From Halanaeroarchaeum sulfurireducens (GTDB lineage: Archaea; Halobacteriota; Halobacteria; Halobacteriales; Halobacteriaceae), in assembly GCF_001011115.1 (NCBI RefSeq), contig NZ_CP008874.1, positions 558,001-622,000 of the forward strand: a stretch of 64,000 nucleotides of DNA, in the 5' to 3' direction. Below, in pieces: positions 11,678-22,007 of this stretch. The position numbers and the translations under genes were made by a program. Numbering within the stretch: position 1 is the first letter of the stretch; each line of letters starts with the position of its first letter. The notes beneath the pieces were generated by a model that saw only the letters and a program-made list of their open reading frames with translations, was not told the DNA's origin and searched no databases.

Positions 11678-11740
11678 TCAGAAGAGGCCGTCGACTGACT
11701 ATCCTGTTCAGAAGAGGCCGTCGACTGACCTTCCGGTTCA
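11678..11740. repeat. 30-bp tandem copies of the CetZ 3' end
   Basis: TCAGAAGAGGCCGTCGACTG starts at 11678 and 11708, and the true cetZ end TCAGAAGAGCCCGTCGAG starts at 11738. The period is exactly 30 bases, so on the minus strand the cetZ frame runs on into two copies that each re-encode VDGLF and a TGA stop (the outer copy also has an internal TAG). The unit therefore duplicates the last codons and the stop of cetZ. Confidence 0.9.
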
Positions 11741-12811
11741 GAAGAGCCCGTCGAGTTCGTCGTTGTCGAACGCGGCCGTCGGATCCTCGCGGTCGACGGA
11801 TTCGCTGGCCGCCTTCGCCCGCTCCATGAACGATTCGAGGCGTGTCGAGCTCGCGATGCCGGAGAGGACGATCACGACGCCGATACGGTCCGATTCGAGC
11901 GGGAGGTCGCCCCCGCGCACCTGCATGCTCTCGGTCTTCTCTTCGACCCATTTGCGGGCGCGCTCGACGCCCTTCCTGGAGACCCGATCCGGTTCGCCGG
12001 CCACGATGACGAGACCTGCCTCCGCCCGTTCGGTCTGGGGGACGCTCATCCCCGTCATGAGGGCCTTCCTTGTCGTGCTGGTGACGACGTTGATGTTCTC
12101 GCTCGCATCCGGGGCGGCCTCGGCCGACGCGTAGCCGATGGCCGCCATGCCGCCGGTTCGAAGGGTGTTGATCACTTCACTCGAGTCCACGACGGACTCG
12201 CCGACCCCCTCGACGTTCTCGCCCGCAGCCAGGACGAGGCCGATCCGCCGGGCGATGGTCTCGTTGATGGCCGCGAACGATTCTTCGACGCTCTCGCCGC
12301 TCTCGTGCCAGGCGTCGTTGTCGACCAGGAGGAGGGCGTCCGTCTCCCGGACGAGCGTCTTGAGCGATCGGCCCGCGTTCGCCTGGTAGATCGCCCCCTC
12401 GTCGCGGCCCGGCAGGATGCCCAGCCCATAGACGGGCGTCTCGTACACGCGCCGGAGTTCGCGCGCGAGAACGGGCGCTCCACCGCTTCCCGTCCCGCCG
12501 CCGAGGCCGGCCACGACGAAGATCGCCTCCGTCGCCGGATCGACCACCCCGTCCAGTCCACCCATAACCTCGCCCACGTCGGCCTGCATGATCGATGCGC
12601 CGAGTTCGTTGTCCGCGCCGACGCCGTGACCCTTGACGCGTTCCTGGCCGACGAGCATCGTCTCGACGTCGAGGGGCGCGAGGTCCGATTCGGCGGTGTT
12701 GACGGCGAGGACACCACGAATGGCGTCGTACCCCGCTGCGCGATCCGCAGCCCGGATCGCAGACGCGACCTTCCCCCCGGCCTGTCCCACTCCGATCAGG
12801 GCGGCTTTCAT
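11738..12811 (-). CDS. cetZ: CetZ tubulin-like GTPase
   Basis: A 357-residue member of the FtsZ/tubulin superfamily. It has an N-terminal nucleotide fold (AALIGVGQAGGKVASAI) and the tubulin G-box VAGLGGGTGSGGAP (about residues 96-109). The C-terminal tail ends DELDGLF. The CetZ family in haloarchaea controls cell shape and motility rather than division. The ATG at 12811 is preferred over one 30 bases upstream, and a box reading TGATAAAACG about 25 bases before it supports a leaderless start. It is divergent from the Tad-like operon. Which CetZ paralogue this is cannot be said. Confidence 0.9.
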   Translation of the reverse strand: MKAALIGVGQAGGKVASAIRAADRAAGYDAIRGVLAVNTAESDLAPLDVETMLVGQERVKGHGVGADNELGASIMQADVGEVMGGLDGVVDPATEAIFVVAGLGGGTGSGGAPVLARELRRVYETPVYGLGILPGRDEGAIYQANAGRSLKTLVRETDALLLVDNDAWHESGESVEESFAAINETIARRIGLVLAAGENVEGVGESVVDSSEVINTLRTGGMAAIGYASAEAAPDASENINVVTSTTRKALMTGMSVPQTERAEAGLVIVAGEPDRVSRKGVERARKWVEEKTESMQVRGGDLPLESDRIGVVIVLSGIASSTRLESFMERAKAASESVDREDPTAAFDNDELDGLF

Positions 12812-12891
12812 ACGTGTCCGGTCGGAGCCCCGTTTTATCAACGTTTGGCTGGCCGAGCCTTTATATATCGAAACGGGTCCACCTGCACTCG
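12812..12891. promoter_or_regulatory. Divergent promoters of cetZ and the Tad-like operon
   Basis: An 80-base spacer holds two back-to-back TATA elements. TTTATATA at 12860-12867 lies about 27 bases before the ATG at 12892, giving a leaderless operon start. A TTTTAT at 12833-12838 (minus-strand ATAAAA) lies about 25 bases before the cetZ ATG. The boxes are about 25 bases apart, so the two promoters probably influence each other. Confidence 0.65.
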
Positions 12892-13308
12892 ATGGACGAA
12901 ACTCGGTCCCTGCAGGAGCGTCTCGACGCTGTCGAGCGAGCGATCACTGACGCGGAGACACCCGTGGCGGGCGTCGAGGAGGCAGCGGAACTCACCTCGC
13001 GCGTCGAGGCCGTCGAGGCGGATCTCGACTCACTGCAGACCCAGATCGACGAGGTCGAGGCCGCCGTCGCCGCCGTGCGTGGGTACGTCGGCGAGATTCG
13101 CCACGTCAACGAGGAGGTCGAACGGACGGCGACCGCGGCGGTGGCGGCCGTCGAGCGGTTCGAGGGCGCCTCGGACGCGCCACCGCCGATCGCCCGTGTC
13201 GAGGACGAGCGGGCCGTGCCGGAGACGCCATCGCCGGCGAAACCGGTGGACGACGCGGACGACACGGACGACCGCTCGATCCTCGAACGGATCCGGTCGA
13301 CGCTGTGA
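12892..13308 (+). CDS. Coiled-coil protein heading the Tad-like operon
   Basis: A 138-residue soluble protein. The first 100 residues form a long heptad-rich helix (for example LQERLDAVERAITDA and ELTSRVEAVEADLDSLQTQI), and the tail is acidic and ends SILERIRSTL. From memory it matches the haloarchaeal coiled-coil family DUF7310, found next to this type of secretion ATPase. It has no membrane segment. It starts leaderless and its TGA overlaps the next gene's GTG (GTGA). A structural or adaptor role in the pilus machine is inference from position. Confidence 0.75.
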   Translation: MDETRSLQERLDAVERAITDAETPVAGVEEAAELTSRVEAVEADLDSLQTQIDEVEAAVAAVRGYVGEIRHVNEEVERTATAAVAAVERFEGASDAPPPIARVEDERAVPETPSPAKPVDDADDTDDRSILERIRSTL

Positions 13309-13778
13309 TCGTTCGACTCGTCCTCGCGGTCGTGGTCGCGACGGCACTCCTGGCTGCTGCCATGCCGGTCGTCGACGACGCCAGACACGAGGTCCGCGCC
13401 ACGGCGGCCGACCGGTCAGTGCAGACGATCGCCGACGCGATCACCGACGTGAGCCGATCGAGCGACTCGGTGCCGCGGGGAACGCCGGGGGCCCGACGGG
13501 TGGTGTCCGTCGAGGTCCCGTCGGAGGCCACTGTAACCATCGGCGGGAACGCGACGGACAACGGCCAGGACGCCGCGAGGGCCGCAATCTCCTACCGCGT
13601 GCCGCCCAACACGACAGGTCGAACGACCGTCGGCGTCGACGTGCGGGTCGTCGAGGGGACAGCCGTCCGACCGGCGGGTGCGGTTCTCGTCCTCCGCGAG
13701 TCCCATCGCGTCGTCCTCCGATACGAGCTCGTCGACGGCGATCCCGCCGTGACGGTCGAAAGCGTTTATCCCGGATGA
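13305..13778 (+). CDS. Small membrane-anchored protein of the Tad-like operon (DUF7311-like)
   Basis: A 157-residue protein starting with GTG. One N-terminal hydrophobic helix (residues 2-21) is followed by an extracellular-type domain rich in beta strands, with NXT/S sites (NATD, NTTG). The pattern resembles minor pilin or assembly proteins, but there is no clear prepilin cleavage motif. It starts within the stop of the coiled-coil gene and ends in an ATGA overlap with the ATPase gene. The function is unknown beyond context. Confidence 0.7.
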   Translation: MIVRLVLAVVVATALLAAAMPVVDDARHEVRATAADRSVQTIADAITDVSRSSDSVPRGTPGARRVVSVEVPSEATVTIGGNATDNGQDAARAAISYRVPPNTTGRTTVGVDVRVVEGTAVRPAGAVLVLRESHRVVLRYELVDGDPAVTVESVYPG

Positions 13779-15616
13779 CCGGCCCACCCAGTCGCATGAT
13801 GTCCGAGTCCGAGGACGCCACCGCCTGCGCCTGCGAACACGAGTTCGTCGACGATGCGCTCGTCGTCGACGCGGCGCCCTGTCCCGGGGACGGCGATCTG
13901 CGCGGGGCACCCGCGTGTCGCGCGGCGGTCGTCCGATCCCTCAGGGAGCGGCCCGTTACTGTCGTGCGGGTGGAGCTCGAGGGGGTCGCCTTCACGTACG
14001 AGGGGGACGCAGCGACGCTGCTCTCCGTGACTGGCGCATTCGCGGCACGCGTCGCCGGACCCGATCCCGGCCTCGCCGAGCGAACCGAACGGAGACCGCT
14101 CGCGGCGGCGCGCGACGCCACCGGTCGCGTCGGTCCCGTCGCCGAACTCGCGGCGGAGACGGGCTTCGACCGGTACGCCGATTCGGACGACCTGGGCTCG
14201 CATCTCCGCCGGACCGTCGGGCCCACGATCGCGGCGGCCCGGATCGACCCGGTCCCCCCGCCCGCTGCCAGTATCGTCTCCACGCGCGTCCTCGATTCGG
14301 GCGCGACGGCGCGGGTGTACGAGGTGGACGACGATCGCCGGTATCACCTCGAGCCACTCGAATACACTTTCGGGAGCGACGCCTTTGGGACGCTCGTCCA
14401 GGCCCACGCCGAACTCGCGACACACGAACCGGGCAGGCGGGCGGCCCACGACGCCGTCGCAACCGTCGCGACCCCCGATCAACCGCTAACCGCGCTCGGT
14501 CGCGTCCTCGCGAAACACTCCCGTGGATACGGCGTCCTCGATGACCTGTTCGCCGACCAGCGCATCGACGAGGTCTACGTCAATGCGCCCGCAGACGAGA
14601 CGTCGCTGTCCGTTCGTCTCGAGGGTCGGACGATGCAGACCAACGTGCGGTTGACCGAACGCGGCGCGAAACTCGTCGCCTCGCGGATCAGGATGGAGAG
14701 CGGGCGGGCGTTCTCCCGGGCCGACCCGACCGTGGACGCGCTCCTGGAGGACGTCGGTGGCCGTGACGCAGTGCGAGTCGCCGGGGTGCAACCGCCCGCG
14801 AGCGACGGTCTCGCCTTTGCCTTCCGGGCCGAAGCCACCGACGAGTGGCGGCTCTCGACCCTCGTGGAGGTGGGGACCATGTCGATCGACGCCGCCGGGT
14901 TTCTCTCAACGGCGATGGCGCGTGGCGCGGCCGTCCTCGTCGCCGGCCCGCGTGGCGGGGGCAAGACGACGCTCGCATCGGCGTTACTCTGGGAACTCCC
15001 CCGCGAGGAGCGGATTCTCGCCATCGAGGACACGCCGGAACTCCCGCTGCGGGCGCTCCAGACGGCCGGTCGGGACGCCCAGCGACTTCGGGCCGCTCCG
15101 GACGACGACACCGCACTCTCACCGGCGGCGGCCCTCAGGACCGCGCTCAGACTCGGCGACGGGGCCCTGGCCGTCGGGGAGGTTCGCGGACCGGAAGCGG
15201 CGGTTCTCTACGAGGCGATGCGCGTCGGCGCGGCGAGCAGCGCGGTGCTCGGGACGATCCACGGCGAGGGCGCCGACGGCGTGCGGGAGCGGGTCGTATC
15301 GGACCTCGGCGTTCCCGCCTCCTCGTTTCGAACGACGGACCTCGTCGTGACGATCGTCCCCGACGGGAGCGCCCGACGGATCGCGAGCATCGAAGAGATC
15401 ACCGATGGCGGACCACGGAGCCTCTTCGAACTGGGGCCAGATGGCGTCGACGCCACGGGGCGGATCGAGCGTGGCAACAGCGAATTCGTCGCGTCGATCG
15501 CCGGACCCGCGGAGTCCTACGCGGACGTCAGATCACTCATCGACGAACGCACGCGGACCGTCTCAGATTCCTCCGGGCGGGACGACGGACCGGGTATCGG
15601 AGCGATGCCGTCGTGA
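13775..15616 (+). CDS. Type II/IV secretion (TadA/PilB-like) ATPase
   Basis: A 613-residue motor ATPase for pilus assembly or secretion. The catalytic half (about 330-560) has Walker A GPRGGGKTTL, Asp box IEDTPELPL, Walker B region LAVGEVRGPEA and a His-box segment (GTIHGEGADGVRERV). The N-terminal 60 residues hold four cysteines (two in ACAC, then PCPG and ACRA) that could form a small metal site. I start at the ATG overlapping the upstream stop (ATGA at 13775); ATGs at 13796 and 13799 are alternatives. It partners with the double TadC-like protein next to it. Confidence 0.9.
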   Translation: MTGPPSRMMSESEDATACACEHEFVDDALVVDAAPCPGDGDLRGAPACRAAVVRSLRERPVTVVRVELEGVAFTYEGDAATLLSVTGAFAARVAGPDPGLAERTERRPLAAARDATGRVGPVAELAAETGFDRYADSDDLGSHLRRTVGPTIAAARIDPVPPPAASIVSTRVLDSGATARVYEVDDDRRYHLEPLEYTFGSDAFGTLVQAHAELATHEPGRRAAHDAVATVATPDQPLTALGRVLAKHSRGYGVLDDLFADQRIDEVYVNAPADETSLSVRLEGRTMQTNVRLTERGAKLVASRIRMESGRAFSRADPTVDALLEDVGGRDAVRVAGVQPPASDGLAFAFRAEATDEWRLSTLVEVGTMSIDAAGFLSTAMARGAAVLVAGPRGGGKTTLASALLWELPREERILAIEDTPELPLRALQTAGRDAQRLRAAPDDDTALSPAAALRTALRLGDGALAVGEVRGPEAAVLYEAMRVGAASSAVLGTIHGEGADGVRERVVSDLGVPASSFRTTDLVVTIVPDGSARRIASIEEITDGGPRSLFELGPDGVDATGRIERGNSEFVASIAGPAESYADVRSLIDERTRTVSDSSGRDDGPGIGAMPS

Positions 15617-17295
15617 TCGATGCCCTGGTGTCGAGCTGTCGGCGCGGTGCCGCGTGGCTCGAAGCGTCGATACCGCTCGACGATGCGCCGCCCCTCTCCG
15701 AAAACCCGTGTGCGACGTCCGTGGGGGCGTCGGTGACTCTGGTCGGGATCCTGATCGTCGTCGGATCGCTCGGGCTGACCAGCGGTGGGACCAGGTCGGC
15801 CGGTTTCGGCCTGGGCGTGGCGAGCGTCGCGATCGCCGTCTATGCCACCTGGATGACACCGGCCTGGATCGAGGCCTACCGTCGACGGATGGCCGTCGGG
15901 GCGGCTCCCGAGATCGTCGCGTATGCCGTCCTCCAGGCTCGACTGACTCCCTCGCTCGAACGGGCCGCACAGTTCGCGGCCTCCCAGTCCGACGGACTGC
16001 TCGGTCGCGATCTCGCGGGGGTGGCCGCTGCCGACGCGACCGGCCGGGCGGGCTGGGAGCGCTTCGCGACCGAGTGGTCGGATCTCGACGAGTCACTCCC
16101 CAGGGCGGTCTCGTTGCTCGTGGCCGGGATCGGATCCGCCCAGCCGGCCAGGGACGACCTCCTCGACCGGGCGCTCGACACCGCCCTCGCGGGGTCGCGG
16201 GAACGGGTGGCGACGTTCGCCACGGCGATTCGCGGCCCGACGACCGGCATCTACGCGTTCGGCGTCATGTTGCCGCTCGCCATGGTAGGTCTGCTTCCCG
16301 TCGCGGCGAGCGCCGGCGTCGGCGTCTCGCCCGCCGCGATCGCGGTGCTCTACGACGGGCTGATTCCGATGGGGCTGCTGGCGGCCAGCGCGTGGCTCGC
16401 GGCCCGACGGCCGGCGGTCGCGCGACCGCCGCCGATCCGCTCCGGTCTCGTCTCGACACGCTCTCCGACGCGCACCACCCTCCTCGCCGTCGGTGTTGGA
16501 GCGACGGCCGGCGTCGCCGGGTATCTCGTGCTGCCGGACTGGGCGACCTGGATCGTGATTCCCGGCGTCGGGATCGGTTCAGCCGCGACGTACTGGTTCG
16601 GCCCGATCCGCGACCGGCGCCAGGTCGTCGACTCGATCGAATCGGGCGTTCCTGATGCCGTCTCGCTCGTCGGCCATCGGCTCGCGGCGGGCGAACCACT
16701 CGAGGCGGCCATCGCGATCGTCGGCGAGCGGCTGTCGGGGGCGACGGCCGACGTCTTTCGTGATGGGACTCGGGTCCATCGACGGCTTCGCGTGACGGTT
16801 CCCGAGTCGTTCACCGGGCCGGTCGGGGCGCTGTCGGCCTACGAGAGTCCTCGAACCGAAACCGCGGTTTCGTTGCTGGCGGCTGCGGCGCGTGACGGCC
16901 CGGCGGGCGGGGAGACGCTGGTGCAGGTCTCCTCGTACCTCCGTGAACTGGACGAAGTGGAGCGGGAGGCGCGCCGGGAGCTGGCCCGCACGACGGACAC
17001 CCTTCGCCAGACCGCTCTCGTGTTCGGCCCGGCCATCGCGGGTGTGACCGTGGCGCTCGCGACCGGGATGGGGTCGCTCGGTAATGGGGGCGAGGCCGTT
17101 CCGGTCCCAGCGCTCGGGGTGGTTGTCGGGGTGTACGTACTCGCGCTCGCGGTCGTTCTCCCCTCGCTCGCGGTCGTCCTGAAACGCGGCCTGGACGTCT
17201 CGATCGTGGGGTATCGCGTCGGAATTGCCCTCTTCACGTCGAGTCTCGTCTATCCCGGCACGTTTCTCGCGGCTCGCACCGTCGTACAGGTTTAA
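15613..17295 (+). CDS. TadC/PilC-like membrane platform protein (two T2SSF domains)
   Basis: A 560-residue polytopic protein starting at GTG 15613, overlapping the ATPase stop (GTGA). Two T2SSF-type helical domains (about 90-200 and 340-450) are each followed by hydrophobic helices (about 215-265, 285-330 and 470-555). This double layout is usual for archaeal pilus platform proteins that sit on the hexameric ATPase. The conserved part reads DAVSLVGHRLAAGEPLEAAI. It is a core component of the machine, with clear context. Confidence 0.88.
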   Translation: MIDALVSSCRRGAAWLEASIPLDDAPPLSENPCATSVGASVTLVGILIVVGSLGLTSGGTRSAGFGLGVASVAIAVYATWMTPAWIEAYRRRMAVGAAPEIVAYAVLQARLTPSLERAAQFAASQSDGLLGRDLAGVAAADATGRAGWERFATEWSDLDESLPRAVSLLVAGIGSAQPARDDLLDRALDTALAGSRERVATFATAIRGPTTGIYAFGVMLPLAMVGLLPVAASAGVGVSPAAIAVLYDGLIPMGLLAASAWLAARRPAVARPPPIRSGLVSTRSPTRTTLLAVGVGATAGVAGYLVLPDWATWIVIPGVGIGSAATYWFGPIRDRRQVVDSIESGVPDAVSLVGHRLAAGEPLEAAIAIVGERLSGATADVFRDGTRVHRRLRVTVPESFTGPVGALSAYESPRTETAVSLLAAAARDGPAGGETLVQVSSYLRELDEVEREARRELARTTDTLRQTALVFGPAIAGVTVALATGMGSLGNGGEAVPVPALGVVVGVYVLALAVVLPSLAVVLKRGLDVSIVGYRVGIALFTSSLVYPGTFLAARTVVQV

Positions 17296-17321
17296 ACCGG
17301 AAGACCGGACCACCCCGTTCC

Positions 17322-17792
17322 ATGAACGCAGTACCGGCCGACGGTCCGTTCGTCTGGATCGCCCTGCTCGTCGTGAGTGCGAGCGTGCTCGGGGTCGTCA
17401 CCGCGCTTCCGAGTGCTCCGCCGCCGGACGCCGCCCGTGTCGCGACGGCGGTCGACGAGGTCGCCGCCACCGATCACGCCGCGTCGGCAATCGTGCCCCT
17501 CGAGGCCACGAAAATCCGTGTCGAGACCACTGAAATTGGCCTTCGTGACGCGGGCGGGACGGCCCACGCGTCGTTCAACTTCGGGCCCGTCACGCCGGCG
17601 CCGCGGGACAGTGCCTTGAGCGAGGTAGCCGCCGGGGCGACGCCCGCGAGGGCGTTCGATTCGCCGTCAGCCTTCGCGGCCGCGCTCGAACGCGCCCGGT
17701 CGGGCGATCACGACTGGGAACCGGCCGGCGAGGAACTTCGGATTCGACGCGTCCAGTACGGGGAGGTCGAAGGTGTTCTGGTCGGGCAGTAG
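17322..17792 (+). CDS. Membrane-anchored small protein (DUF7283-like)
   Basis: A 156-residue protein with one N-terminal hydrophobic helix (WIALLVVSASVLGVVTAL, about residues 12-29) and an external domain. It follows the platform gene by 26 bases, the only real gap in the operon, and overlaps the next gene by 20 bases. From memory it resembles haloarchaeal family DUF7283. No enzyme motif is visible. A pseudopilin or assembly role is inferred from its anchor and neighbours. Confidence 0.68.
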   Translation: MNAVPADGPFVWIALLVVSASVLGVVTALPSAPPPDAARVATAVDEVAATDHAASAIVPLEATKIRVETTEIGLRDAGGTAHASFNFGPVTPAPRDSALSEVAAGATPARAFDSPSAFAAALERARSGDHDWEPAGEELRIRRVQYGEVEGVLVGQ

Positions 17793-18147
17793 GGCACAGG
17801 TCGAACCGCTCCCCGCCCTCGTCGCGGTGAGCGCGTTCGTCGCCGCTCTGGGGCTGTACGCGGTCGCGTTCCACGACGTTCCCCTCGGCACCGAGCGTGA
17901 CGTCGAGACGCAGGCGCTGTCGTCGGTCGTCGAAGACAGTTCGACTGCCGGTGTTCTCGATCCCACGGCGGTCATGGCCGACGCCCCCCGGGGCCACGAG
18001 ATGGCCGTCGTCGTGCGGGCGGACGGCTCCGAGTGGCAGACGGGCCCGTCGCCGCCGACGACGGCACGGACGGCCACGGAGCAGGTTCTCGTCCGCACGG
18101 CGAGCGGGGAGCAGGTGGGGCGGATCAGGGTGTGGGTGTGGCGATGA
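17773..18147 (+). CDS. Pilin-like protein (DUF7285-like)
   Basis: A 124-residue protein starting at GTG 17773. The N-terminus SRAQVEPLPALVAVSAFVAA resembles archaeal type IV pilin leaders: a short basic segment, then QVEP with Glu near position +5, then a hydrophobic helix. Processing by a prepilin peptidase before this stretch is plausible. It overlaps both neighbours (20 bases upstream, ATGA downstream). The family identity DUF7285 is from memory. Confidence 0.68.
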   Translation: MFWSGSRAQVEPLPALVAVSAFVAALGLYAVAFHDVPLGTERDVETQALSSVVEDSSTAGVLDPTAVMADAPRGHEMAVVVRADGSEWQTGPSPPTTARTATEQVLVRTASGEQVGRIRVWVWR

Positions 18148-18650
18148 ACCGCGCCATCAGCACGGTGTTCGACGTCGGCTTCGCCATCGTCCTGGTGGGG
18201 GCAAGCGTCGCCGTCCTCGCCGGCGTGCCCGCCCCGGGAACCGATCAACCCCCGACAGTCCACTCGGGCGGTGGCGTCGCGCTCTCCGGTAGCACCATGA
18301 CCGTACAGTATCCGCGAGAGGACGGGCCACCAGCGGTCGTGACGGGAACGGTGGCCGGGCACGTGCGGGACGCCGCCGTCGCACGGCACGCCGGCGTCGG
18401 CGACGACTACGTCGCGGCCGTCGAGCGGGAGGTCGGCACCCGGATCAAGGACACTGGGACGCGGACCCAGCTCGTCGGCGCGTGCGAACCCCGAAACGAG
18501 CCGTCGACGCCAGCAGACACCATTGTCGTCGGACCGGCGCCGCCGACCGGTGATCCCGTCGATGCGACCGCGTATCGGTGGAACGAGACCGACGACGGCG
18601 GGTCACGCGACTGCGACCCCGTTGTCGTCGTTCGGCGGTGGTCGCCGTGA
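18144..18650 (+). CDS. Pilin-like protein (DUF7284-like)
   Basis: A 168-residue protein beginning MNRAISTVFDVGFAIVLVG, a short basic leader and hydrophobic helix like the H-domain of archaeal pilins, followed by an external domain with two cysteines (ACEP, RDCDP) that could form a disulfide. It starts in an ATGA overlap and ends in a GTGA overlap with the large protein. It probably belongs to the extracellular or pseudopilus part. The family name is from memory. Confidence 0.68.
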   Translation: MNRAISTVFDVGFAIVLVGASVAVLAGVPAPGTDQPPTVHSGGGVALSGSTMTVQYPREDGPPAVVTGTVAGHVRDAAVARHAGVGDDYVAAVEREVGTRIKDTGTRTQLVGACEPRNEPSTPADTIVVGPAPPTGDPVDATAYRWNETDDGGSRDCDPVVVVRRWSP

Positions 18651-21526
18651 CGATCGTTAGTGACGATCGGGGTCGGGTTCCCTTCGCTCTCATCGCGGCG
18701 CTGTTGCTCGTGTCAAGCCTGACGTTCGCGAGCGGCCTCGTCCACGAGGCGTCCCAGGACCCCGTCTCACCCAGACTCGTCGAGACGTCCACCCAGGAAG
18801 CGCGCATCCAGCTTGGATCCGTCGCCCGGGCGGCGGACCGGGCCGCCGCCGCGGAACCCGTCCTGTCGCCCGGCCAGACCCAACTGGGCCGCGTCATCGC
18901 CGACGACCCCTTCGAACGCGCACTCGAACTCCGCATCGCCGTCCGGGCGAGCCAGCGGGTGGCGGCCACCCGCGCCGCCGGCAGAACGACCGTCCGGGTT
19001 TCGGCTCCCCCGATTACCGACGAGGCCGCGGCCCGCCGCGCCCTTCGCGAGGTCGACATCACTCACCTCGAGGACGAACGGTATCGGGTGGTCCTGGAGA
19101 ACGTTTCCGTCGTGGCCACTCGGGACGGGCACGTCGTCGAGCGGGACGTCCTCATCCTCGAGACGACGGTCGCTCTCCCGTCGATGACCGTCCACCAGCG
19201 GGCGCGCACCTTCGAGCGGCGGCTTACGGCGGACATCACGGACCCCGGGCTCAACCGTGGGCTGACTGCCCGCCTGTTCGCGCTCGCCTGGGTTCGCGGC
19301 TACGCCCAGTACGGGGGCGCGCCGATATCGAACGTGGTGGCGAACCGTCACGTCGGCGTCCTGACGAACGATGCGCTCGTCGACCAGCAGGTGGCGGCCT
19401 TTGGGCGCGCGGATCCCGAGAGCCAGCGGGGCGTGGCTCGCGCTGCCGCTGACGTGGCCGTCGTCGACGGGGTCGGCGGGCTGGAGTCGCTGGTCACCTC
19501 GGCGGCGGACCCGGCGAACGGGAGCGAGAAGCCGGGGCGTGCGGCGTCCCTCGACGCCGTCGAGATGCCGTCCGTCGTGGACGATCCCCAGGAGTTCGAC
19601 GTGGGTCAGGGCGCCGATCGCGCGTTCGTGGACTTCGCCGACGGGTCGGGCCTCGACCAGGCCGTCAGGTCAGCGTACCGTACCAGCATCCGTCCCGAGA
19701 CGTCGGCGCGGTTCACGGGATACGACGAGCGGTACGAGGGCGAGCGGCCGGAAAACGGGACGAGGCGATTCTCGTATACGACCAGCGATCGCACGGTGAC
19801 CGGCGACGACCGGGCGGCGGGATACGGGTCGACGGTGCTTCGATACGACCGCACGGTGGCGGTCACCCGGACCGAACACACCTTCTGGACCGTCAATCGG
19901 TCGTTCGCCGGCACGACCAGCGTCGCCCGAGAACGGACGTACGACGTCTCCGTCGACGTCGAATGCCGGTACGATCGGCCGGACGACGCCCCGTCCGCCC
20001 GGATGACACGGACGTGTCCGTTCGGCGAACCGGCCCGGGCCGCCCTCGAACGAGAGTCGGCGGAGGCGATGTCCACGCGGTTCGGCGGCGTCGATTCGGT
20101 CGCGGCGGACGCTGCGACCGGCTACCACTGGCACGGCTGGCGAACGGTCACGGTGGACCCGCCGCCCGGAGCGCGCGAACGCGCCTACGGATCGGCCGCC
20201 GCGCTCCGCGACGAAGTCCGGGGGATCGACGTCGAGATGCCGCCCGCCTCGATGGCGTCCAAGGCGAACCCCGCCTCGCGGCTCGAAGCGACGATACGGC
20301 GCCGCCACGATTCGCTCGTAGACGCCCCTCGGTACTACGACTCCGCCGCCACGGTGGCCGAGTATGCCGCCCGCGACGCGTACCTGGATGCATTGCGGGG
20401 GGATCTCGCCGATCAGTCCTCTGCGATCGCCGGAATGCAGGACGGCCTGGGGGACGTGATGGCGTCGAACGCCGTCCCTGGCGCCCCGCCAGACGACGAA
20501 CCGGAGGCACTCTCGCCGATCGCCGCATCGGTGTCCGCGGAGCCACGGTATCTATCGCTTTCGGCCCAGCGGGGGTCGCCAAACCTTGCGGCGCGGAACG
20601 TCAACCTGTTTACCGTCCCGTACGGCGACGCCGCCGACGTGGTGGGCGGGGCCATCGGGGGCGACGACGATTCGGCGTCGCTCTCCTCGGCGACGAACAC
20701 GCTCGTCGCCACGAACCGGGCGCTCGAGTCGGCGGACGACCCGCAGTTGCGGGCCAGACGCGATCGGCTTCGCGGGGCCATCCGGTCGTCGATCGCCCGT
20801 GTTCGTGTCGAACAGCGAAGCGCGCTCCGGATCGGGACCGACCTGTCGCGAAGGGAGGCGACCGCCGTGATCGACGCGGGGTACGATCGGCACGATTCGG
20901 TCGCCTCGCGGGCCCGAGCGGTGTCCGACGGGTCGATCGCCGAGGACATCGCGGCGTCGCTACCGCCGTCGACGACGGCCAGCGTGCGCGATCGCGCACT
21001 CGTGGAGGTGCGGGTTGCGACGACCGACGCTCGGGGCGACGAGACGGTTCGCGTCTCCGAATCGGTCGTCCAGGGAGTCGCCGAACGGGTGCGGCCACAC
21101 GTGCGCGAGGGCGTCGAGCAGGCGGTTCGCGTCGGAACGGACCGCGCCGCGTCGATGGCAAAACGGCGCACGATGCGGTCGGCGGCTGCCAAAATGCCGG
21201 CCGGGTTGCCGCTGACCCCCGTTCCGGGCCAGTGGTACGCGACGGCAAACGTCTGGGTCGTCTCCGTCAAGGGCGGATACGACCGATTCGTGGTTGACGC
21301 CCCACGTGCGAGTCCGACACAGGGGAACGGAGGAACGATACAGTACGTCCGCGAGTCGGACACCGTTTCCCTGGACGTCGACGGGGACGGTCACGAGGAG
21401 ATCGTGGGCCTGAACGAACCGATCGAACTCGCCACGACGACCGGGGTCTTCGTCGTGGTTCCGCCCGGCCCGGCCGGCGTCGGGGATACGAACGGGGACG
21501 CCGACGAGCGCTCTTCGGGATGGTGA
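18647..21526 (+). CDS. Large exported protein of the Tad-like operon (DUF7286-like)
   Basis: A 959-residue protein starting at GTG 18647 with one N-terminal hydrophobic helix (FALIAALLLVSSLTFASGLV, residues 13-32). A very long extracellular region rich in Asp/Glu, Arg and beta segments follows, with NXS/T sites. There is a helical, Arg/Ala-rich stretch around 590-840 and a C-terminal domain ending in an acidic DxDxDG-like loop (DVDGDGHEE) that could bind Ca2+. I recognise only the haloarchaeal family (DUF7286, from memory). As the largest product it may be the tip, adhesin or channel component; that is speculation. Confidence 0.7.
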   Translation: MTIVSDDRGRVPFALIAALLLVSSLTFASGLVHEASQDPVSPRLVETSTQEARIQLGSVARAADRAAAAEPVLSPGQTQLGRVIADDPFERALELRIAVRASQRVAATRAAGRTTVRVSAPPITDEAAARRALREVDITHLEDERYRVVLENVSVVATRDGHVVERDVLILETTVALPSMTVHQRARTFERRLTADITDPGLNRGLTARLFALAWVRGYAQYGGAPISNVVANRHVGVLTNDALVDQQVAAFGRADPESQRGVARAAADVAVVDGVGGLESLVTSAADPANGSEKPGRAASLDAVEMPSVVDDPQEFDVGQGADRAFVDFADGSGLDQAVRSAYRTSIRPETSARFTGYDERYEGERPENGTRRFSYTTSDRTVTGDDRAAGYGSTVLRYDRTVAVTRTEHTFWTVNRSFAGTTSVARERTYDVSVDVECRYDRPDDAPSARMTRTCPFGEPARAALERESAEAMSTRFGGVDSVAADAATGYHWHGWRTVTVDPPPGARERAYGSAAALRDEVRGIDVEMPPASMASKANPASRLEATIRRRHDSLVDAPRYYDSAATVAEYAARDAYLDALRGDLADQSSAIAGMQDGLGDVMASNAVPGAPPDDEPEALSPIAASVSAEPRYLSLSAQRGSPNLAARNVNLFTVPYGDAADVVGGAIGGDDDSASLSSATNTLVATNRALESADDPQLRARRDRLRGAIRSSIARVRVEQRSALRIGTDLSRREATAVIDAGYDRHDSVASRARAVSDGSIAEDIAASLPPSTTASVRDRALVEVRVATTDARGDETVRVSESVVQGVAERVRPHVREGVEQAVRVGTDRAASMAKRRTMRSAAAKMPAGLPLTPVPGQWYATANVWVVSVKGGYDRFVVDAPRASPTQGNGGTIQYVRESDTVSLDVDGDGHEEIVGLNEPIELATTTGVFVVVPPGPAGVGDTNGDADERSSGW

Positions 21527-21572: not shown

Positions 21573-22007
21573 ATGTTCGTGGACTCGATCGACGCTCCCG
21601 ACGACCGGACGGCCGAGGACCTTCTCGCCGAGTACCGCGACGACCTCGGCGACATCGTAGTAGACGTAGGGGTGGAGGCGGCCGCCGATCGCGCGGGCGT
21701 CGACGAGAGCGATCTCCGGTCGCTGGTCAGGGGCGAGCCTTCGGATCTCTCGATCGGGGACGCCTGTGCCATCTGGGCGCTCTCCGACGATCTTCCGGAC
21801 GAGGAGACGATCAGACGGGAGATCCAGGACTCGATCATGCTGGGGATGGCGTCCGCGATCCTTGACGTCGACACGCTCGAACGCGAACTCGACGGCGATC
21901 TCGACGCGAAGACGATCCAGCAGAAGATCGAGGGGCGACGCCCGATGTCACTCGAGGAGTACGCCGCGATCGCGTTGCTGATCGCGCGCGAGAACAAGTT
22001 CGCCTAA
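21573..22007 (+). CDS. Conserved haloarchaeal protein (DUF5791-like)
   Basis: A 144-residue acidic soluble protein, mostly helical. It contains AAADRAGVDESDLRSLVRGE, which looks like a helix-turn-helix, then a helical half (KIEGRRPMSLEEYAAIALLI). From memory it matches haloarchaeal DUF5791. An ATTACC box near 21540 is about 30 bases before the ATG. It follows the Tad-like operon by 46 bases but probably has its own promoter. A DNA-binding role is possible and unproven. Confidence 0.7.
   Translation: MFVDSIDAPDDRTAEDLLAEYRDDLGDIVVDVGVEAAADRAGVDESDLRSLVRGEPSDLSIGDACAIWALSDDLPDEETIRREIQDSIMLGMASAILDVDTLERELDGDLDAKTIQQKIEGRRPMSLEEYAAIALLIARENKFA

Follow-up and report, generated by a model that had tools for sequence, protein, structure and literature searches.

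A co-conserved eight-gene operon with a type IV filament-type motor in haloarchaea

The window analyzed here is a 64,000-nucleotide stretch of the Halanaeroarchaeum sulfurireducens genome (NZ_CP008874.1, positions 558,001 to 622,000), in which eight co-directional open reading frames on the forward strand span positions 12892-21526. They encode an assembly ATPase, a membrane platform protein and six partner proteins, and across haloarchaea the eight genes behave as one co-conserved, all-or-none unit that includes the motor.

Genes and products of the locus

The seven junctions are, in order, a GTGA, an ATGA and a GTGA overlap, a 26-base gap, a 20-base overlap, an ATGA and a GTGA; six of the seven overlap. 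These exact overlaps describe the window locus only, automatic start calls elsewhere being too rough for overlap counts. The gene chain and its junctions had been listed in an earlier sequence-only reading of this DNA, and the coordinates and overlaps match the sequence. The sole obvious archaeal promoter element, seen by eye, is a TATA-like box, TTTATATA, at 12860-12867 on the forward strand, 32 bases 5′ of the first ATG, which is probably the promoter of a leaderless operon transcript. A crude scan found a TATA-like match 18-45 bp 5′ of the first gene in 25 of 67 loci of the second locus set (below).

The ATPase (13775-15616, 613 residues, PilB2/TadA/GspE type) matches T2SSE (PF00437) at 65.4 bits against a cut-off of 24.9. 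Its nearest solved structures are archaeal GspE (2oap) and the Tad protein CpaF (8rkd; E-value 7.7e-30), with FlaI also related; the CpaF/TadA-type model TIGR03819 scores 112.7 bits, below its cut-off of 373. Four N-terminal cysteines of the ATPase are kept in 94-95 of 98 orthologues. As a separate observation, genome G044, which has no DUF7286 gene, holds a 337-residue frame (G044:C21:233126-233818) that matches only this N-terminal cysteine region (profile positions 10-244), apparently without the ATPase domain. The adjoining platform protein (15613-17295, 560 residues, TadC/PilC2 type) has several transmembrane (TM) helices and scores 24.6 bits with T2SSF (PF00482), just below the cut-off of 25.2. 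The sequence-only reading had likewise listed both motor components, of which the ATPase is clear and the platform probable. One prepilin peptidase match (PF01478, 47.3 bits) lies elsewhere in the genome, outside the locus.

The six remaining products belong to existing Pfam families, and all are encoded on the forward strand. The leader, DUF7310 (12892-13308; PF23991, 94 bits), is a cytosolic coiled-coil protein of 138 residues with no TM helix. DUF7311 (13305-13778; PF23993, 110.7 bits), of 157 residues, has one N-terminal TM helix (residues 5-23) and no clear class III motif, and DUF7283 (17322-17792; PF23954, 168 bits), of 156 residues, likewise has an N-terminal TM helix and, by alignment, no class III cleavage motif. 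They are followed by DUF7285 (17773-18147; PF23956), DUF7284 (18144-18650; PF23955) and the exported, 959-residue DUF7286 (18647-21526; PF23957, 894 bits). A single N-terminal hydrophobic helix is present in each of the four short proteins and in DUF7286, and is absent from the leader; these TM profiles agree with the coiled-coil leader, four short membrane-anchored proteins and large exported protein described previously. All six partners had been called uncharacterized. Each already has a Pfam family, although our literature search found no paper naming DUF7310, DUF7311, DUF7283, DUF7285, DUF7284 or DUF7286.

Three of the partners carry N termini that resemble archaeal pilin processing sites such as RAVS of PilA and RAQI (PMC4371748), a likeness at the level of motifs. 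DUF7285 begins MSSxxR[GA]QxEPL (RAQ-VEPL in the window), with R/K-[AG]-x in 94 of 98 orthologues, and is probably a pilin-like subunit. DUF7284, whose window copy has the PilA-like signal RAIST, shows R-[AG]-[VIM]-S in 52 of 98 orthologues and is probably a minor pilin. Most of the 98 DUF7286 orthologues begin D-R-[GA]-R-[VI]-PFAL (DRGRVPFAL in the window), and DUF7286 is probably a large, exposed minor pilin or adhesin. The AlphaFold model of DUF7285 comprises a TM helix, a second helix and a four-stranded sheet (predicted local distance difference test score, pLDDT, 89.6), and that of DUF7286 is multi-domain, with N-terminal helices followed by a mixed helix-and-sheet region (pLDDT 78.2; predicted template modeling score, pTM, 0.49). 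The best fold matches, of DUF7285 to ribosomal protein uS3 (Z 7.7) and of DUF7286 residues 346-493 to SecB (Z 6.2), were within background and were dropped, so no fold claim is built on them. No PilA or Flp pilin was recognized by Pfam or NCBIfam among the eight proteins, in keeping with the previous remark that the operon lacks a small abundant pilin.

The operon is flanked upstream by a divergent gene for a CetZ tubulin-like protein (11738-12811, reverse strand; CetZ_C, 211.8 bits), which the CetZ_C match places at the level of CetZ and not of a subfamily. Its right border is a DUF5791 gene (21573-22007, forward strand; PF19104).

Conservation, loss and spread

Co-conservation across haloarchaea, proposed by the sequence-only reading as a check, was examined in 145 Halobacteria genomes, from which 118 regions were read and 96 loci with ATPase and DUF7286 on the same strand were obtained; a second set comprised 70 loci with full flanks. 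ATPase orthologues were separated from paralogues by a wide gap (at least 319 bits versus at most 96). An orthologue occurs in 104 of the 145 genomes, every one of which has DUF7286 as well; among the rest, 35 lack both genes and six carry DUF7286 without the ATPase. The two genes lie within 5 kb of one another for 98 of 106 ATPases. Each of the eight genes was found in 93-96 of the 96 intact loci and in 67-70 of the 70 loci of the second set, and the small genes are thus neither absent from genomes that keep the ATPase nor unassociated with it. An initial DUF7311 profile drifted onto antisense frames (175 matches, 107 loci) and gave way to window-anchored profiles. The usual order, DUF7310, DUF7311, ATPase, platform, DUF7283, DUF7285, DUF7284, DUF7286, is conserved across nearly all loci of both sets, and the arrangement is therefore not due to chance. 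Loci of genus g29 (L102, L109 and L120) depart from this order, their DUF7283 and DUF7310 homologues having moved downstream of DUF7286. CetZ lies beside the operon on the opposite strand in 62/96 and 49/70 loci, and DUF5791 borders it in 77/96 and 63/70. Each of six named Haloferax species examined has the eight genes with divergent CetZ upstream and DUF5791 downstream.

Four genomes that lack the ATPase (G012, G056, G067 and G124) hold deletion scars, all located between CetZ and DUF5791. In G012 the beginning of DUF7310 is fused in frame to the end of DUF7286, G067 and G124 each retain a fragment of both genes, and G056 has broken DUF7286 fragments only. Genes 2-7 were removed together and the break points differ, indicating that the operon was lost as a block. 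In the scar at locus L134 (9380-10321), pieces of DUF7310 and DUF7286 make up a single open frame. Two other genomes with DUF7286 and no ATPase show no scar: G045 has no motor but retains the DUF7285-7284-7286 triad, and the G120 locus is interrupted by contig ends. The ATPase tree mostly follows taxonomic family, with a few ATPases falling outside their own, for example the second copies in G058 and G140. As noted at L107 and L097, the system is present twice in G140, and G058 has a divergent copy in addition to its first; the ATPases of both genomes group with family f3, which suggests that these copies arose by horizontal transfer.

A wider sample of 296 genomes of the phylum contained DUF7286 in 87 genomes, an ATPase orthologue in 85, both in 82 and neither in 206 (Fisher p 9e-63, a value that overstates the evidence because related genomes are not independent). 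Haloarchaeal ATPase orthologues score more than 700 bits, those in methanogen families 275-420 bits and paralogues at most 154 bits; the methanogen label of these families is inferred from a control match in Methanosarcina acetivorans and their position within the phylum. On the methanogen side, 14 regions were read, and in 12 of them the orthologous ATPase adjoins an orthologous platform gene; Methanocella-like genomes encode DUF7285-7284-7286 as a separate triad. Several haloarchaea of families f3 and f7 also have the motor, with DUF7310, DUF7311 and DUF7283, split from the triad. Given these splits, we read the locus as two modules, a motor and a pilin triad, that most haloarchaea have joined in a single operon. 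No DUF7310, DUF7311 or DUF7283 homologue was tied to a methanogen motor locus, a single weak DUF7311 match being to an unrelated open reading frame, and these three families were detected only in haloarchaea. Methanogen-side genomes have short frames limited to the C-terminal portion of DUF7286, in some cases arranged in tandem (L159, 1690-3096, minus strand; L170, 1537-2343 and 2951-3772, plus strand), suggesting that this domain can stand alone.

The sequence-only reading had suggested a distinct haloarchaeal surface machine. The eight genes do form one unit; the system nevertheless extends beyond haloarchaea, the motor pair and DUF7286 being present in methanogen families and the triad in Methanocella-like genomes. 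The methanogen relatives and the deletion scars also shift the inferred history, and suggest an older system that was repeatedly lost and not a recent acquisition.

Proposed machine and alternatives

We propose, with a probability of about 0.62, that the eight genes specify a single archaeal type IV machine, either a filament or a pseudopilus: a PilB2/PilC2 system with traits of subclade 4F (PMC4858521) in which DUF7286 is the large exposed subunit. In such a machine the prepilin peptidase would process DUF7285, DUF7286 and many DUF7284 proteins by cutting after R-[AG], and the ATPase and platform would pull the exposed N-terminal helices into a filament. DUF7285 and DUF7284 would act as initiating or core pilins, with DUF7286 facing outward at the tip or in the manner of an adhesin, and the shaft may consist of a PilA-family pilin supplied in trans. 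DUF7311 and DUF7283 would serve as uncleaved, haloarchaea-specific membrane accessories and DUF7310 as a cytosolic coiled-coil regulator, and the neighboring CetZ may position the machine.

One genome, G014, provides a natural test. It has only two T2SSE matches, the operon ATPase and a weak, partial match of a kind that occurs in every genome of that search. The weak match we take to be a PIN-domain ATPase and not a pilus motor; on that reading, the operon ATPase is the only pilus ATPase in G014. A single prepilin peptidase and a single PilA-type pilin are still encoded in this genome, versus 7-8 PilA-type pilins in two genomes of the same genus, suggesting that the machine needs prepilin processing and may have a PilA shaft.

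Several points weigh against the proposed machine. The G014 argument comes from a single genome, the motif arginine is missing from about half of the DUF7284 orthologues, and DUF7286 and the motor occupy separate loci in methanogens. Fold searches with the DUF7285 and DUF7286 models gave no pilin match and nothing confident, and no paper found reports a filament, processing or a phenotype for this locus.

The main rival is a secretion or surface-display pseudopilus, comparable to the bindosome of Sulfolobus or to the piston of type II secretion. It would make no long filament; its short pilin-like proteins would instead span the membrane as a stub by which DUF7286 and other proteins are exported or displayed. 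Such a device would accord with the lack of a major pilin gene in the operon and with several one-helix accessory proteins beside one very large exported protein. The NCBIfam model of the bindosome ATPase, BasE, does match the operon ATPase, but weakly and far under the cut-off (42.5 versus 1000 bits), and G014 retains one PilA-type pilin with this motor as its only one; we regard a pseudopilus without a filament as doubtful. That same pilin could instead indicate that the locus is simply an alternative motor for PilA pili and that none of the six partners has a structural role, being either regulators or genes in loose association. ATPase/TadC modules can work with pilins in trans, and PilB3-C3 rescues a pilB1-C1 deletion in H. 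volcanii (PMC6491452). However, 93-96 of the 96 loci retain each partner, the partners disappear along with the motor, and class III-like N termini are present on three, which makes a motor-only role rather improbable.

A mobile element lately inserted beside cetZ2, as proposed in PMC9856176, would explain the patchy presence of the operon and the few ATPases that fall outside their own family. The CetZ-DUF5791 scars show, however, that at least four absences are deletions, the ATPase tree is mostly ordered by taxonomic family, and no integrase was recognized among the eight genes and two neighbors. A recent insertion, already disfavored, is very improbable. Returning to the proposed type IV machine, its boldest form, in which the working part of the filament is the approximately 1000-residue DUF7286 instead of a small pilin and the adjacent CetZ sets the machine's place on the cell, is unlikely; if true, it would link archaeal cell shape to a type IV system. 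This widely kept system (104/145 haloarchaeal genomes) has no function described in the literature found. Treating six orphan Pfam families as one unit with a motor makes that function directly testable in Haloferax and gives annotators grounds for renaming the families.

Comparison with known type IV systems

The gene chain was described in the sequence-only reading as Tad-like, and the comparison holds for the motor only, through its relatives 2oap and CpaF 8rkd. The ATPase is probably of the CpaF/TadA type of the bacterial Tad/Flp pilus, and the order of ATPase, platform, small one-helix proteins and large exported protein resembles tadA-tadB/C-tadE-tadF-tadG. It differs in having a single platform gene, and none of the eight proteins has a Pfam or NCBIfam match to Flp pilin, TadZ, TadE/F/G, secretin or RcpC. 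The PilB3/PilC3-PilA pili of Haloferax and the archaellum share the ATPase superfamily and class III signals (RAVS sites in PilA, PMC4371748; RAIST and RAQV here). They differ in that the PilB3 locus has no pilin genes (PMC4858521). Their ATPases are distant paralogues, with scores far below those of all orthologues of the operon ATPase, which upholds the earlier claim that this motor is separate from both.

Subclade 4F was defined with a cysteine-rich ATPase N terminus, the haloarchaeal coiled-coil partner arCOG07564, an S-layer-like protein and methanogen members (PMC4858521). The present system is alike in its cysteine-rich N-terminal region, its large surface protein and its spread over haloarchaea and methanogens, and DUF7310, by its coiled coil, may correspond to the haloarchaeal partner. 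It differs in that the dedicated PilA-family major pilin of 4F was not found in this operon. H. volcanii PilB2 has been assigned to 4C (PMC6491452), a subclade that is halobacteria-specific in the PMC4858521 census. That assignment fits poorly because of the methanogen orthologues found here, which fit 4F better than 4C by their traits and not by place on the published ATPase tree.

The closest description concerns a regulon of pilB2/C2 type IV pili that adjoins cetZ2 in Haloferacales and Halobacteriales, H. volcanii being an example (PMC9856176). Shared features are a divergent CetZ gene, a single ATPase and a single platform protein, together with several predicted pilins and one surface protein. 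The conserved hypothetical arCOG04674 has been reported in cetZ2 regions (PMC9856176); DUF5791, which persists after operon loss, could be this protein. From the match to this regulon and the 4F traits, we conclude that the locus is a further member of a catalogued type IV system and not a new machine. Recent acquisition of the regulon was proposed from its patchy distribution (PMC9856176), whereas the scars described here argue for loss in four genomes; that study also leaves the partner families and methanogen relatives unresolved, and both are given in the present analysis. What is new here is the all-or-none behavior of the eight genes, the scars, the two-module history and the motif survey.

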